NCBI RefSeq assembly: GCF_007994735.1
Contig: NZ_VOIL01000001.1
Coordinates: 558,001 to 622,000 of the forward strand
Length of the DNA stretch: 64,000 bases
Source of the DNA: Nesterenkonia populi
GTDB taxonomy: Bacteria > Actinomycetota > Actinomycetes > Actinomycetales > Micrococcaceae
Direction of reading: 5' to 3'
Numbering within the stretch: position 1 is the first letter of the stretch; every line of letters starts with the position of its first letter. The notes below the pieces were generated by a model. The model saw nothing but the letters and a program-made list of their open reading frames with translations, made no database searches and had not been told where the DNA came from. This document shows positions 42,437-48,412 of the stretch, piece by piece. The position numbers and the translations under genes were made by a program.

Positions 42437-42919
42437 TCATATGCCTTCCGGGAAGAGGCCCCGCATCCGCACCAGGGAGGCCTGCATGTTCGCGGCGTTC
42501 TCCTTGAGCACTCCGGCGGCCTTCAGCGCTGCCCGCGCCGGCGGCAGCTGCCGGGAGGTGTCGAAGGTCTCGGTGACGATGACGCCGCCCTCGGCGGGCT
42601 CGATCTCCCACCGCCATCGGTGCCCGGTCGGTTGGCGCCACTCCACCGTCCGGTTCCGCTCCGCGCGGGTGACCCGCAGCGGCAGCCGGTACGGGACCCC
42701 GAACTTGCGCATATGCACGCTGAACTTCGTGCCCTCAGCGAGCTCGTGCGGGCCGATCGCCTGGGACTTCACCGTCCCGGAGCCGTCAAACTCGTGGTGC
42801 CGGTGCGGGTTCGCCACGAGCGCCCACACCTCCTCGGGTGAGGCCGGGACGAAGGCCCGGAACCCCACGGCGTGCGGGCCGGCATCCACCGGCTGAGGTG
42901 CGACGATGTCATCCTTCAT
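42437..42919 (-). CDS. SRPBCC (START-like) family protein
   Basis: Protein of 160 residues with the helix-grip fold: N-terminal FVPASPEEVWALVANPHRHHEFDGSG is typical of polyketide cyclase/dehydrase-like SRPBCC proteins that hold hydrophobic ligands. ATG 42919 lies 7 nt after TAGTCT. The C-terminal half of the Clp_N fusion at 45918-46907 is a distant relative with the same IPASAEEVFALVSDP opening. Ligand unknown. Confidence 0.83.
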   Translation of the reverse strand: MKDDIVAPQPVDAGPHAVGFRAFVPASPEEVWALVANPHRHHEFDGSGTVKSQAIGPHELAEGTKFSVHMRKFGVPYRLPLRVTRAERNRTVEWRQPTGHRWRWEIEPAEGGVIVTETFDTSRQLPPARAALKAAGVLKENAANMQASLVRMRGLFPEGI

Positions 42920-44245: not shown

Positions 44246-45877
44246 ATGAGGTGGCGCGCGGCAGTGGTGGGGTCCGGTCCCAACGGCCTGGTGGCCGCCA
44301 ACCGGCTCGCCCAGGCAGGCGCCCAGGTGACCGTCTTCGAGACGGCGGAGGCGCCCGGGGGAGCGCTGCGGTCGGCCGAGCTGTTCGGCGCCGGGCTGGT
44401 GAGCGATCTCGGCGCCAGCGTGCACCCGCTGACCATCGCCTCACCCGCATACGACGCCGTCCTGGACACCGCCCCGGACTGGGCTCATCCGCGCATTCCC
44501 GCTGTGCACGGGATCGACGGCGGCTGCCCGCCCGCGGTGCTTCACGCCTCCCTGGAGGAGACCGCTGCCGGGCTGGGCGCTGATGGCCCCCGGTGGGAGG
44601 CGCTGATGGGTCCGCTGGTGCGGCACTGGGATGACGTCCGCAAAAGCGTGTTCGCCCCGCCGAGCCGTCCCTTCGCCTACCAGTACGAGGATGCTGCGTG
44701 CCTCAGCGCCGACGCCGCCCTCTCACAGCGGCTGCGGCGCTCCTCCTTCGCGCCGCTCAGCGGGGCAGCGGGCGCGCTGGGGCGCACCCACGCCCTGGCT
44801 CAGCTGGGGCTGCGCGGGGCACTGCCCGCCCGTGCTCTGGACCGGCTCTTCTCCGAGGAGCGCACCCGGGCCCTGTTCGCCGGCTTGGCCGGGCATTCCG
44901 CCTCCCCCCTGAGCCGAACGATGACCTCGGCGTTCGGGGTGATCTTCGGGGCGGCCGCCCACGCCGGCGGCTGGCCGGTGCTGCGCGGCGGGTCCCAGCA
45001 GCTGGTGGATTCCCTGGTGGAGGCAATCACCGCTCGCGGCGGCCGGGTTGAGAGCGGGTTCATGGTGGAGTCGATGGTCGAGGCGCGGCTGCCTGCCGGG
45101 CGAATGGGCACTCGCAAGGACCTCCGGCGCCGGGGCTGGAAGCTGGCGGGCACCAGCGGCAGTCTGCAGCGCACTGCCGAGGAGGTCTACGACGTGGTGG
45201 TTCTGGACCTCACCCCCGCGCAGATGCTGCGCATGGACGGGCTCGATCTCCCCGGCTGGCTGCGCCGGCGGTTCAGCCGGTGGGACTACGGGCCCGCCGT
45301 TGTGAAGGTCGACTACCTGCTGAACGGCCCCGTCCCCTGGAAGCACCAGGAGATGGCGAATGCCGGCACCGTGCATCTGGGCGGCACGGCCTCCCAGATT
45401 GCCGCGGCAGAGTCAGCGGTCGGCCGCGGGGTGCTCCCCGGGCGTCCGTACGTGCTCATGGCTCAGACCGGTGCCGCTGATGAGGCCCGCACTCCGGATC
45501 ACCGGCAGACCATGTGGGCCTACGCGCATGTGCCGCAGGGGCTGGATGCCTCCGGAGCACGGCGGGCTGTGCGGCTGATTGAGGAGGAGATCGCTCGGCA
45601 GGCGCCCGAGTTCAGGGACGTGGTCCTGGAGCGGAAGGTATGGGGGCCGGAGGAGCTGGAGGCGTGGAACCCGAATCTGGTGGGCGGAACCATCAGCGGC
45701 GGCCTGCCGACGCTGAGCCAGATGGTGGCCCGTCCTCGTCCGGTGATTCCTTATGCGGCGGGGCCTGACGGGGTGTACATGTGCTCCTCCTCGACTCCGC
45801 CGGGAGGCGGCGCCCATGGGATGGGAGGCTACAACGCGGCGATCAGCATCCTGAAGGATCTCGAGCTCCAGGATTAG
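44246..45877 (+). CDS. Phytoene-desaturase-like NAD(P)/FAD oxidoreductase
   Basis: Flavoprotein of 543 residues. The N-terminal dinucleotide fold VVGSGPNGLVAANRLAQAGAQVTVFETAEAPGGALRS and the C-terminal PGGGAHGMGGYNAA match the CrtI/PYROXD2-type oxidoreductases. No other carotenoid genes are near, so it is more likely a PYROXD2-like enzyme than a real phytoene desaturase. Substrate unknown. Convergent with the Clp_N fusion gene. Confidence 0.87.
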   Translation: MRWRAAVVGSGPNGLVAANRLAQAGAQVTVFETAEAPGGALRSAELFGAGLVSDLGASVHPLTIASPAYDAVLDTAPDWAHPRIPAVHGIDGGCPPAVLHASLEETAAGLGADGPRWEALMGPLVRHWDDVRKSVFAPPSRPFAYQYEDAACLSADAALSQRLRRSSFAPLSGAAGALGRTHALAQLGLRGALPARALDRLFSEERTRALFAGLAGHSASPLSRTMTSAFGVIFGAAAHAGGWPVLRGGSQQLVDSLVEAITARGGRVESGFMVESMVEARLPAGRMGTRKDLRRRGWKLAGTSGSLQRTAEEVYDVVVLDLTPAQMLRMDGLDLPGWLRRRFSRWDYGPAVVKVDYLLNGPVPWKHQEMANAGTVHLGGTASQIAAAESAVGRGVLPGRPYVLMAQTGAADEARTPDHRQTMWAYAHVPQGLDASGARRAVRLIEEEIARQAPEFRDVVLERKVWGPEELEAWNPNLVGGTISGGLPTLSQMVARPRPVIPYAAGPDGVYMCSSSTPPGGGAHGMGGYNAAISILKDLELQD

Positions 45878-45917
45878 GGGCCGGCTGGCCTCCTGAGAGT
45901 TCGGACTGGTCCTGGGC

Positions 45918-46907
45918 TCAGCGGAAGTTGAGGCTGATCTGGGTGGAGAGGTGAGCGGCCTGCACCCAGAGGAGCGGCTGCAGGCCGGGTCGCACAGCGG
46001 TGCCGACGAGGCGGCGGAGCCGGTGGGCATCTCGCGGGTAGGTCACGGTGAACCGCATATGGGTGCCGCCGTCCGTGGGCCAGAGGCGGATCGCGCGGCA
46101 GTGGGGCTTGCTGACGGAATTGCCGGGGAAGCTCACTCGCCACACGACCCGGTGGGGCTCCGCGGCATCCATCAGTTCGAAGACCTGGCGGCGTTTCTCC
46201 TCGGAGGGCGTCCGGGGCTTGCCGTTCGGCCATGCGGCCGGGAGGAGTGCCTCCCATGTCTGTTTGCCTGTGTGCTCGACGTCGGACCCTGCGGTGTCCC
46301 AGTCTGGGATGCGCTCGGGGTCTGAGACGAGCGCGAAGACTTCTTCCGCAGAGGCGGGGATGAAGGTGTCTTTGGTGACGCTGAGCTGGGACGGCTTCCG
46401 GTCAGGCTGGCGAGAGGCCGACCGGGACTCAATCTCTGCGAGGCGTTCTCGGCCCTCGTCGGCATTCGTCCCGAGCCGTTCGAGCACGGCGGCGATGAAC
46501 CCGCTGGGCTCCTCCAGGAGCTCGCGGAGAACGTCGGCAGCGTTCCCCTGCTTCCGCTGTCTGCTGCGGCGGCCCTTGCCTGCGCCTTGGAACGTGCGCT
46601 TGGCGTTCTCGCTCCAGTCAAAGTGGGCCTTGGCCTCGTAGAGGGTGATGCGGCCGATGGGCTGCTGCACGTCATTCACCCCGATGCTGCTCATCTGATG
46701 GGCGTGCTGCTCCTCGATGGCCTTCCGTGCGGCGTCGAGGGTGATGCCTAGGGAGCGGAGCGCCTGGCCGGCGGGCTGCTCGTTGAGGAGGACGGCAAGG
46801 AACAGGTGCTCGATGTCGATCTTCTTCCGTCCCCATCGGGAGGCCTCCTCCGCAGAGGTGAGGCTGAGCGCGTAGGCGGTGGAGAGTGCTTCGGCGGTTC
46901 TGCTCAT
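45918..46907 (-). CDS. Clp N-domain fused to SRPBCC domain
   Basis: Protein of 329 residues with an unusual architecture. Residues 1-150 are a double Clp repeat like the substrate/adaptor-binding N-domain of ClpA/ClpC (AYALSLTSAEEASRWGRKKIDIEHLFLAVLLNEQPAGQALRSLG, then NAADVLRELLEEPSGFIAAVLERLG), without any AAA+ ATPase part. Residues about 180-329 are an SRPBCC ligand-binding fold (FIPASAEEVFALVSDPERIPDWD...HMRFTVTYPRD). It could be an adaptor that couples ligand sensing to protein handling; this is inference. The start overlaps the stop of the HTH gene (ATGA), so the two proteins are made together. Confidence 0.85.
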   Translation of the reverse strand: MSRTAEALSTAYALSLTSAEEASRWGRKKIDIEHLFLAVLLNEQPAGQALRSLGITLDAARKAIEEQHAHQMSSIGVNDVQQPIGRITLYEAKAHFDWSENAKRTFQGAGKGRRSRQRKQGNAADVLRELLEEPSGFIAAVLERLGTNADEGRERLAEIESRSASRQPDRKPSQLSVTKDTFIPASAEEVFALVSDPERIPDWDTAGSDVEHTGKQTWEALLPAAWPNGKPRTPSEEKRRQVFELMDAAEPHRVVWRVSFPGNSVSKPHCRAIRLWPTDGGTHMRFTVTYPRDAHRLRRLVGTAVRPGLQPLLWVQAAHLSTQISLNFR

Positions 46908-47149
46908 GTGCGCCTCCTCGGCACGGGGATGGTCTGGTCGACGCGTTTGGCGTACTTCTTGTGGACGGCCTGTCGGCTCACGCCGAGGTGGTCGGCGATC
47001 TGCTGCCAGGTCATGCCGGCGCGTAGGGCTGCCTCCACCTGCTTCAGTTCGAGGGTGTCAGTGAGTCCCCGCAGCGACGCGACGGCGCGCAGTCCGGCTC
47101 GGGGGTCTGAGGTGTCGGCGGCAGCTTGCGCCGTCTCGGAAGAGCTCAC
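46904..47149 (-). CDS. Small helix-turn-helix regulator, partner of Clp_N-SRPBCC protein
   Basis: Protein of 81 residues. A single HTH occupies residues about 45-70 (LRAGMTWQQIADHLGVSRQAVHKKYAKRV). First gene of a two-gene operon. GTG 47149 is 6 nt after TAGGTT, with TTGACA 17 nt further upstream: a nearly ideal promoter in which both boxes carry a CAAC-N4-GTTG palindrome. Autoregulation by this protein is the simplest reading. The Clp_N partner may bind or destabilise it. Confidence 0.87.
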   Translation of the reverse strand: MSSSETAQAAADTSDPRAGLRAVASLRGLTDTLELKQVEAALRAGMTWQQIADHLGVSRQAVHKKYAKRVDQTIPVPRRRT

Positions 47150-47154
47150 AATGT

Positions 47155-47166
47155 CAACCTAAGTTG
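47155..47166. promoter_or_regulatory. Operator-like palindrome over -10 box
   Basis: CAAC-CTAA-GTTG, overlapping the TAGGTT -10 hexamer (47156-47161) of the HTH operon. Identical half-sites to the second copy at 47182-47193, 27 nt away centre to centre. Confidence 0.65.
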
Positions 47167-47184
47167 CTTCCCTTTGGTTGTCAA
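47156..47184 (-). promoter_or_regulatory. Promoter of HTH/Clp_N-SRPBCC operon
   Basis: TTGACA (47179-47184), 17-nt spacer, TAGGTT (47156-47161), then 6 nt to the GTG start. The best sigma-70-like promoter in the window. Confidence 0.75.
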
Positions 47185-47193
47185 CGATAGTTG
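47182..47193. promoter_or_regulatory. Operator-like palindrome over -35 box
   Basis: CAAC-GATA-GTTG, overlapping the TTGACA -35 hexamer. With the copy at 47155-47166 it forms a 17-nt direct repeat (AGCAACTnnnGTTGACA). Confidence 0.65.
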
Positions 47194-47658
47194 CTGCGTC
47201 GACGTTTTGGTAGGTTCAAGACCCGCAACTTGGTAGATTCAGCTCACCCTGCGCTGGCGGCACGGCTGGCCGGCGTGGACAAGCAGGGGCTGATCACCGG
47301 ACAGGGGAAGCGAGTGGGCCGAGGCGAGGAGACCTGGCTGGGAGCCCTGTTCGAGTCATTGGTCACCCAGTCCGTGCGCGTGTATGCCCAAGCGATGCAC
47401 AGTCAGGTCGGCCACCTGCGTACGCGGGGAGGAGAGCATGAGATTGACCTCATCGTGGAGAACCGGGATCATTCCGTGGCCGCGATTGAGGTGAAGCTGA
47501 AGGCAGAGGTGGGAGCAGGTGACGTCAAGCACCTGAACTGGCTGGAAGATCAGATCGGCGACCGCGTCCGGGACAAGATCATCATCACCACTGGGGAGCA
47601 CGCCTACCGGAGGGCGGGCGGCGTCGCAGTGGTGCCGCTGGCGCTGCTCGGCCCCTGA
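47191..47658 (+). pseudogene. Truncated DUF4143-type ATPase (C-terminal part only)
   Basis: About 155 residues matching the C-terminal half of AAA+/DUF4143 proteins: FKTRNLVDSAHPALAARLAG, the GEETWLGALFESLVTQSVRVYAQ core, and a PD-(D/E)xK-like EIDLIVENRDHSVAAIEVKLKAEVGAGDVKHLNWL. The N-terminal AAA+ ATPase domain (Walker A and B) is missing. The open frame begins at a TTG inside the operator of the divergent HTH gene with no ribosome site. Probably a decayed remnant left by a rearrangement at the HTH promoter. Confidence 0.75.
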
Positions 47659-47692
47659 TGCTGCCGCGCCGTCTCACCGTCGACATCAATGA

Positions 47693-48412
47693 TCACACTC
47701 CGTTGAGGGCGAGCATGGTGGCGACGGTGAGCATCGTCAGGCCGACGACGACGTCGATCACCACCCAGGTGCGGGGGCGGTTGAGCACTCCCGCCAGGGC
47801 GGAGCTGCCTGCACCGAGCACCGTGTGCCAGAGCACGGAGGCCAGCATCGCCCCAGCCGCGAACAGCCAGCGGCCGTCCCCGAAGCTGTTCGCCATCGTT
47901 CCCAGCACCACCAGGGTGTCCACCAGGGCATGGGGGTTCAGCAGGGACAGGGCCAGACCTGCTGCCGCCACCGCAGAGGCCCGTGACGTCGCCGGAGCCG
48001 CAGTGCGCTGAAGCGTCGCAGTGCCGCCCGACGGTCCAGCGTCGTATCCGTGCTTCTGGGCACTCACCGCCGGCATCTCCGAGGTCAGCGCCTCGTCCAC
48101 GGCGTCGCTGCGCTGGTCCTTCGCCCCTCGCCGAGCCTGCCAGGCGGAGCGGAACGACTTCACTGCGAACCAGGCGATGTAGGCGACGCCCACCCAGCGC
48201 AGCACCTCCAGGAGCCACGGGGCCGCCTCCAGAGCCACTCCTACGCCGACCACACCCAGGACGATGAGGACGATGTCGCCCACCAGGCATGCAGCCACCG
48301 CCAGCGGGACGCGGTCGCGCCGGAGCCCCTGCCGCAGCAGCCAGGCGCTCTGCGGGCCGATGGCGACGATCAGGGCCATTGTGGTAAGGAATCCGGTGAG
48401 CAGAATGGTCAT
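47693..48412 (-). CDS. lysE: LysE family amino-acid exporter
   Basis: Membrane protein of 239 residues, six hydrophobic segments, with the LysE opening GFLTTMALIVAIGPQSAWLLRQGLRRDRV, exporting lysine/arginine in Corynebacterium. The polar loop between helices 3 and 4 is long (about 50 residues). Real start ATG 48412 (AGGA upstream); the longer frame overlaps the argP promoter. Divergent from an argP/lysG homologue, the standard pair. Confidence 0.9.
   Translation of the reverse strand: MTILLTGFLTTMALIVAIGPQSAWLLRQGLRRDRVPLAVAACLVGDIVLIVLGVVGVGVALEAAPWLLEVLRWVGVAYIAWFAVKSFRSAWQARRGAKDQRSDAVDEALTSEMPAVSAQKHGYDAGPSGGTATLQRTAAPATSRASAVAAAGLALSLLNPHALVDTLVVLGTMANSFGDGRWLFAAGAMLASVLWHTVLGAGSSALAGVLNRPRTWVVIDVVVGLTMLTVATMLALNGV

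Follow-up and report, generated by a model that had tools for sequence, protein, structure and literature searches.

A helix-turn-helix/Clp_N-SRPBCC gene pair of Nesterenkonia populi as a probable split relative of the mycobacterial ClpC2 operon

What does a Clp N-terminal (Clp_N) domain do when it is joined to a ligand-binding fold, has no AAA+ ATPase and is encoded directly behind a small helix-turn-helix (HTH) protein? The question is raised by two genes on the minus strand of a stretch of 64,000 nucleotides from Nesterenkonia populi, the whole of which is called the window here. Both SRPBCC and Clp_N domains also have non-sensing roles. The reading favored here, to which we assign a probability of roughly 0.6, is that the pair is a split relative of ClpC2 in which an HTH autorepressor works with a Clp_N-SRPBCC sensing partner, and in which a ligand lifts repression and is then sequestered.

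The upstream gene (46904..47149, minus strand) has a GTG start and encodes a predicted repressor of 81 residues, with the HTH at about residues 38-68 and a C-terminal tail at 66-81. Its stop codon overlaps the start of the second gene (45918..46907, minus strand) in an ATGA at 46904..46907 on the same strand, an arrangement that suggests translational coupling. The 329-residue product of the second gene consists of a double Clp_N domain (PF02861, residues 3-165 or so) and an SRPBCC domain (Polyketide_cyc2, PF10604, about 175-329), each recognized both by its curated score and by its fold, which for the SRPBCC part is a helix-grip fold predicted to be of the small-molecule receptor type. No AAA+ family is among the five Pfam families that match this protein at E<=1, and the NCBIfam ClpB model aligns with the Clp_N part only (16.1 vs 1232.1 bits); absence of a family such as ClpS from the fold listing carries no weight. 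Identity to the Polyketide_cyc2 or START-like SRPBCC proteins of the PYR/PYL fold is low (16%), and a common fold does not mean a common ligand. Regulation by RNA was rejected, as no Rfam family reaches its gathering threshold within 45000-48000. Nearby, a separate stand-alone SRPBCC protein (42437-42919, minus strand) matches Polyketide_cyc2 with 38.6 bits and is weakly Rv0910-toxin-like (26.9 bits, cut-off 100), and a short open reading frame divergent from the HTH gene (47191-47658, plus strand) matches a DUF4143 protein over the C-terminal part alone and is probably a remnant.

A preliminary description of the locus had proposed a Clp_N domain fused to SRPBCC without an ATPase and coupled to an 81-residue HTH protein, all of which the Pfam and fold assignments and the ATGA overlap bear out, and the co-occurrence of the HTH and Clp_N genes that it wished to see in other genomes is real. 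An HTH alignment found 92 matches in 83 of the 396 genomes of a phylum sample (E<=1e-8); all 92 were examined, and 76 have Clp_N no more than 1.7 kb downstream on the same strand, while 16 do not. In a named sample, Clp_N is present at 79 of the best 80 of at least 540 loci, a selection that favors the window's class. The HMMs behind the count of 76 of 92 were built from sequences of this study, and scanning 62 and 44 of the proteins with Pfam, an independent library, gives the same result. An offset of -4 between the HTH stop and the start of the second gene is found in 66 of 79 named pairs and in 34 of the 73 phylum-sample pairs with an assigned start. A scan with the Clp_N-SRPBCC protein alone gave no relative, as none of the 45 stretches that fit a pattern was confirmed; the HTH alignment succeeded instead.

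The partners fall into two classes. Those of the SRPBCC class, to which the window belongs, have Clp_N followed by SRPBCC and are mostly 308-362 residues long; the 66 loci include 40 from Micrococcales, nine from Actinomycetales, four from Nocardiopsidaceae and four with other labels, one of them doubtful. Those of the Clp_N-only class mostly have 150-210 residues and a consensus start M-F-E-R-F. Only four of the 76 phylum-sample partners, one being the window's own, have a detected SRPBCC domain. Alignments were made of 62 of the 66 SRPBCC-class candidates (window included) and 44 of the 86 Clp_N-only candidates, with further alignments (A8, A5 and A6) of 28, 35 and 18 rows. By Pfam, all 62 of the former have Clp_N and 53 of them have Polyketide_cyc2, and all 44 of the latter have Clp_N. 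The stand-alone HTH + Clp_N pairs, found in streptomycetes, pseudonocardias, streptosporangia and others, have a homologous HTH, the same gene order and often the same overlap as the window pair.

Close relatives of the window protein are scattered. The search covered 98 genomes, 97 of them from relatives and one the window's own. Full-length relatives occur in G014, of the same genus, and in G042, G048 and G052, with shorter or more distant matches in further genomes; within the genus, one of 29 other genomes (G014) has a full-length match. Same-genus copies at G001:C9:24077-24707 (L007/L024) and on G025:C394 (L008) look broken or incomplete. Eight loci of relatives match over more than 160 residues (window left out), and at seven of them an HTH gene lies beside the Clp_N-SRPBCC gene; the eighth, L027, has none. 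That locus is listed in a genome, on contig C1 of G042, that also has two HTH + Clp_N-SRPBCC operons (L003 and L025), L027 being a third, distant Clp_N match. The HTH protein is better conserved than its partner, with 57-81% identity to the window HTH at seven loci against 23-39% for Clp_N-SRPBCC at six. Carriage by phages or plasmids was rejected, as Clp_N-SRPBCC had no tblastn match among 50,697 phage records (E<=0.01) or among 72,556 plasmid records (E<=0.001). A record titled Vibrio cholerae strain 35D (L056) holds the pair otherwise seen in actinobacteria; the locus has 62% G+C and the title is probably a mislabel or a contamination. In the literature searched, whose coverage left out most subscription journals and bioRxiv, there was no report of a bicistronic HTH + Clp_N(-SRPBCC) unit and none joining a Clp N-terminal domain, SRPBCC and a helix-turn-helix. 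A paper on Micrococcus luteus (PMC8467076) deals with ClpP/ClpX and another HTH protein and has no bearing on the window pair.

How the pair might be controlled is suggested by the DNA before the HTH gene, where two operator-like palindromes of the form GCAAC-n4-GTTGAC, the proximal GCAACTTAGGTTGAC (47153..47167, minus strand) and the distal GCAACTATCGTTGAC (47180..47194, minus strand), stand 27 bp apart. Reading of the sequence places a -35 element TTGACA (47179..47184, minus strand), of a pattern counted in relatives, over the distal copy and, after a 17-nt spacer, a -10 element TAGGTT (47156..47161, minus strand) over the proximal one. With 6 nt between the end of the -10 and the GTG start, the transcript is predicted to be leaderless.

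The layout recurs in relatives. All 69 SRPBCC-class rows have CAAC-n4-GTTG in the 170 nt upstream (shuffle mean 0.25, largest 2), and in 54 it occurs at least twice; the same arms with spacers of 2, 3 or 5-8 occur in only 0-2 rows. Among Clp_N-only rows the motif is upstream in 59 of 90, and a GTTGAC or GTCAAC half-site occurs one or more times in 84 of 90 (shuffle mean 8.7); the motif is found also in 9 of 20 rows without an assigned Clp_N gene, that is, 17 HTH loci without Clp_N and three with Clp_N but no assigned gene start. Rows were placed in classes by HMM hits or by the length of the protein; the window (L001) is among them, and one locus is counted twice (L009 = L111). At the loci with an assigned start codon, 65 of the SRPBCC class and 85 of the Clp_N-only class, a looser arm pattern gives palindrome copies 27-29 bp apart in 61 and 64, respectively, and a TTGAC/TAnnnT -35/-10 pair is found in 47 and 63. 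In the SRPBCC class the last copy of the looser pattern ends 4-6 nt before the start at 57 of 65 loci, and the -10 ends 6 or 7 nt before it at 45 of the 47 loci with a -35/-10 pair.

The exact 15-base GCAAC-n4-GTTGAC occurs in the window's own genome at these two sites only, in G398 and G407 at the equivalent operon only, and in G042 at its two HTH-Clp_N operons only; G014 and G052 have one and three extra exact sites. When one mismatch is allowed, the window genome has 8 matches vs 11 for the reversed control, and among the matches listed, which do not include sites of G048, such sites are no commoner than the control in six of seven genomes, the exception being G042 (11 vs 8, its second HTH-Clp_N operon included). 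A wider regulon was rejected on this comparison. The shorter GTCAAC-n4-GTTG matches the window genome exactly at a third site as well (485451-485464) and, with up to one mismatch, gives 32 matches vs 25 for the control. Autoregulation alone is the simplest reading of the operator sites.

The known system that this anatomy resembles is ClpC2, which is found in mycobacteria and in further actinobacteria (PMC10030653; PMC12913811). Mycobacterial ClpC2 is a Clp_N protein without an ATPase that binds cyclomarin A (Taylor et al. 2023, PMC10030653). As described there, ClpC2 represses its own promoter, described as leaderless, via CGTCAAC-n5-GTTGACG over the -35 and -10, an operator that lies one or two nt before the start and is repeated over -35/-10 in many species; cyclomarin A hinders DNA binding and releases repression, and ClpC2 soaks up the drug (PMC10030653). 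The response is narrow even in ClpC2, since ecumicin and ilamycin bind it without triggering it (PMC12913811).

Profile-profile alignment, in which each E-value is for one pairwise comparison, relates both parts of the window pair to this protein. The window-class HTH aligns with the N-terminal part of 18 ClpC2-type fusions (hhalign probability 97.1, E 5.6e-11, 48 columns), and the window-class Clp_N with that of the fusions (E 2.7e-9) and with stand-alone Clp_N (E 7.3e-20, 150 columns). At E<=0.001 the stand-alone HTH alignment finds matches in 102 of the 148 genomes examined from the class; of 20 weaker matches, hand-picked from those listed by reading-frame length (240-303 residues), 19 have an HTH and a double Clp_N in one chain, and 17 of these 19 fused proteins have GTCAAC-n5-GTTGAC just before the start. 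Judged by its sequence, the window operon is a split ClpC2-type operon that bears an SRPBCC domain. Like ClpC2, the pair has homologous HTH and Clp_N parts and no AAA+ module, and as sequence features a GTTGAC half-site, two tandem operator-like sites over -35/-10 and a leaderless-type start a few nt downstream. Unlike ClpC2, which is one polypeptide, the window HTH and Clp_N are two open reading frames that overlap by 4 bases; the spacer is n4 and not n5, with AGCAAC in place of the GTCAAC arm and the GTTGAC arm kept; and the window class has an added SRPBCC domain and an HTH tail of nearly fixed length. Autoregulation is shown for ClpC2 and would hold by analogy for the window operon; repression, drug-induced release and sequestration by ClpC2 have been tested by others, whereas the window operon is known from its anatomy alone.

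The comparison also bears on ClpC2 itself. Its DNA binding was placed in the Clp_N part, at R185 and R189 (PMC10030653). The main text of that paper makes no mention of an HTH and the main text of PMC12913811 likewise names none in ClpC2; an HTH region was noted in the paper on RelI (PMC13284704). In ClpC2 the counterpart of the HTH recognition helix, by alignment, comes after residue 72, and the crystallized fragment spans 4-72; against this solved fragment (8ada) the window-class HTH profile gives only E 0.36 and the stand-alone-class profile a weak E 0.0082, at which designed proteins score equally. R57 of the ClpC2 dimer salt bridge aligns with L42 of the window HTH, beside which is R43, and in the SRPBCC class there is no conservation at the position equivalent to R93. 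The HTH is supported as a DNA reader by the fact that in split operons a separate HTH protein accompanies nearly the same operator half-site, and the alignments suggest that DNA recognition by ClpC2 is done at least partly by its HTH.

In a tree of the Clp_N parts, all 62 SRPBCC-class proteins lie on one side of one branch (support 100/100), which fits a single gain, and SRPBCC was apparently gained once by the window's class. The 18 fused ClpC2-type proteins form one group (100/95), and the stand-alone proteins require three changes. Rows were cut at residue 175 and may include a few residues of the SRPBCC end; ten of 24 ClpC1 N-domains, taken from 30 loci, are in the tree, and the PF02861 survey, which gave mostly long ClpC-like frames, was used only for these domains. 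The HTH tail, whose anchor was located in 65 of 65 SRPBCC-class and 74 of 85 Clp_N-only proteins, is 13-18 residues long in every SRPBCC-class locus, measures 16 residues in 45 of them and has a PRR-like motif in 44; in stand-alone pairs it is 4-21 residues long among the 72 listed, with such a motif in 6. Kinship within the SRPBCC class may explain part of this pattern, and the tail is a candidate docking peptide for the Clp_N-SRPBCC partner. At one locus (L173, in G138, a genome with four HTH matches) the HTH and Clp_N matches share one frame beside n4-type operators, possibly an independent HTH-Clp_N fusion.

Is the ligand then that of ClpC2? Cyclomarin contacts F2, F80 and E89 in ClpC1 numbering (PMC10030653). 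These residues are found in 24, 24 and 24 of 24 ClpC1 N-domains, in 15, 14 and 17 of 18 ClpC2-type fusions and in 42, 40 and 34 of 44 stand-alone partners, which unlike the window protein are Clp_N only and keep the three contacts. In the 62 proteins of the SRPBCC class, the F2 position has F in 17 and L in 21, the F80 position F in 3 and W in 38, and the E89 position E in 6; the window protein has T4, W98 and Q107. It thus differs from the N-terminal domain of ClpC/ClpC1 in these drug-contact residues as well as in having no AAA+ module, and several second-repeat positions are missing or unlike in its class. With the contacts lost, the known ClpC2 ligand cannot simply be transferred, and this loss together with the added SRPBCC domain makes it probable that the ligand of the window operon is not cyclomarin. 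Ligand recognition has probably passed, in part or wholly, to the SRPBCC pocket.

At the loci without Clp_N whose downstream gene was identified, relatives of the HTH protein precede ABC exporters (L186, L189, L192), an NRPS-like gene of AMP-binding/PP-binding type (L071), a sirtuin (L196) and a PIN-domain gene (L197). Such variety is consistent with a small repressor that is paired with different effectors, of which some could plausibly serve in drug response. The exporter genes (PF00664 + PF00005; L186:1668-3563, L189:1798-3603, L192:3-1901) follow distant HTH relatives, and L189 and L192 have GTCAAC-type palindromes upstream. The L071 gene, from Ornithinimicrobium cavernae (L071:5308-9180), encodes a 1290-residue AMP-binding/PP-binding/hexapeptide protein and follows a close HTH relative that has two operator-like palindromes and no Clp_N.

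The working model is that the HTH protein, most likely as a dimer, would bind the two tandem palindromes over the -35 and -10 and keep the operon off. The co-translated Clp_N-SRPBCC protein would be the sensing partner, which contacts the HTH and binds the ligand; such a contact is suggested by ClpC2, whose Clp_N part is covalently joined to a homologous HTH. Ligand binding would relieve repression, the Clp_N-SRPBCC protein would then be made in quantity, and it would sequester the ligand as a ClpC2-like sponge that protects ClpC1 or another target.

Other explanations have to be weighed against this model. It is conceivable, if unlikely, that the Clp_N-SRPBCC protein senses proteotoxic stress by binding unfolded or damage-marked clients or Clp adaptors and not a small molecule, so that client load would pull it off the HTH and the operon would supply a holdase or a ClpC1 decoy. 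Core proteostasis genes are not known to be patchy within a genus, and the patchy distribution of this one speaks against such a role. The SRPBCC part has a weak similarity to AHSA1, which is Hsp90 co-chaperone-like (E 0.0012, below the cut-off; 40 of 62 SRPBCC-class members show it at E<=0.01), and a stress sensor would also suit the rise of ClpC2 mRNA, about twofold, on heat shock and the slowing of casein degradation by excess ClpC2 (PMC10030653). A toxin-antitoxin-like pair, with the HTH as a RelI-like antitoxin and Clp_N-SRPBCC as the toxin, is improbable. We know of no toxic activity of a Clp_N domain, 72 of the 76 phylum-sample partners are Clp_N proteins without a detected SRPBCC, and the reading was rejected on the score of the SRPBCC part, far below the model for Rv0910-type toxins (NCBIfam NF047960, 13.6 bits vs a cut-off of 100). 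What recommends it is that the HTH profile matches RelI, a related small HTH antitoxin of the RelS-RelI system (PDB 9sdc, E 3.5e-6), that some RelI homologs at least are regarded as descendants of ClpC2 (PMC13284704), and that the PIN-domain gene mentioned above follows one distant HTH relative (L197). The partner of RelI is a RelE-superfamily RNase (PMC13284704), whereas that of the window HTH is Clp_N-SRPBCC, with no adjacent RelS toxin gene.

One idea of the preliminary description, beside an anti-repressor module, was protein turnover, in which Clp_N tethers the HTH to the ClpC-ClpP protease and the ligand controls degradation of the repressor, and this we hold to be quite improbable. Clp_N domains can interact with adaptors, and the idea accords with the presence of the domain and the overlap of the genes, but the Clp_N-SRPBCC protein has no AAA+ module. 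A free Clp_N is the docking site of an unfoldase and not the unfoldase, and nothing points to degradation, which leaves the link to the Clp protease unsupported. ClpC2, the closest studied system, is described in PMC10030653 as acting by DNA release and sequestration and not by repressor degradation. Protease turnover was rejected as the main reading on the missing ATPase and this precedent; the more general idea of a ligand-controlled regulator acting by repression or anti-repression stands, its layout being that of ClpC2 (PMC10030653). That description did not include the two operators, the predicted leaderless and autoregulated promoter, the relation to ClpC2 or the larger HTH + Clp_N family without SRPBCC. 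A self-standing enzyme or carrier, whose SRPBCC domain turns over or carries a hydrophobic metabolite, with Clp_N for dimerization or as a scaffold and an HTH that just keeps expression low, is an explanation to which we give very little credence. SRPBCC domains include enzymes, and the convergent neighbor is weakly carotenoid-oxidoreductase-like (74.5 bits, far below the model cut-off); the stand-alone Clp_N partners under the same type of operator speak for Clp_N as the functional core.

The split, ligand-responsive relative of ClpC2 is the reading retained. Tentatively, and with odds somewhat against it, one can picture a family of two-protein, ligand-gated repressors derived by re-tooling of an ancestral HTH/Clp_N drug sensor, in which the Clp_N scaffold would dock on the HTH, perhaps via the class-specific HTH tail, and the added SRPBCC domain would be the new sensor. 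If true, actinobacteria would have a receptor-repressor pair whose sensor sequesters its own ligand. Drugs are directed at ClpC1, and the action of one that binds it is blunted in bacteria by ClpC2, a route that has been studied. The SRPBCC branch points to a ligand that the self-regulated promoter, used as a ready-made reporter, could help to find.
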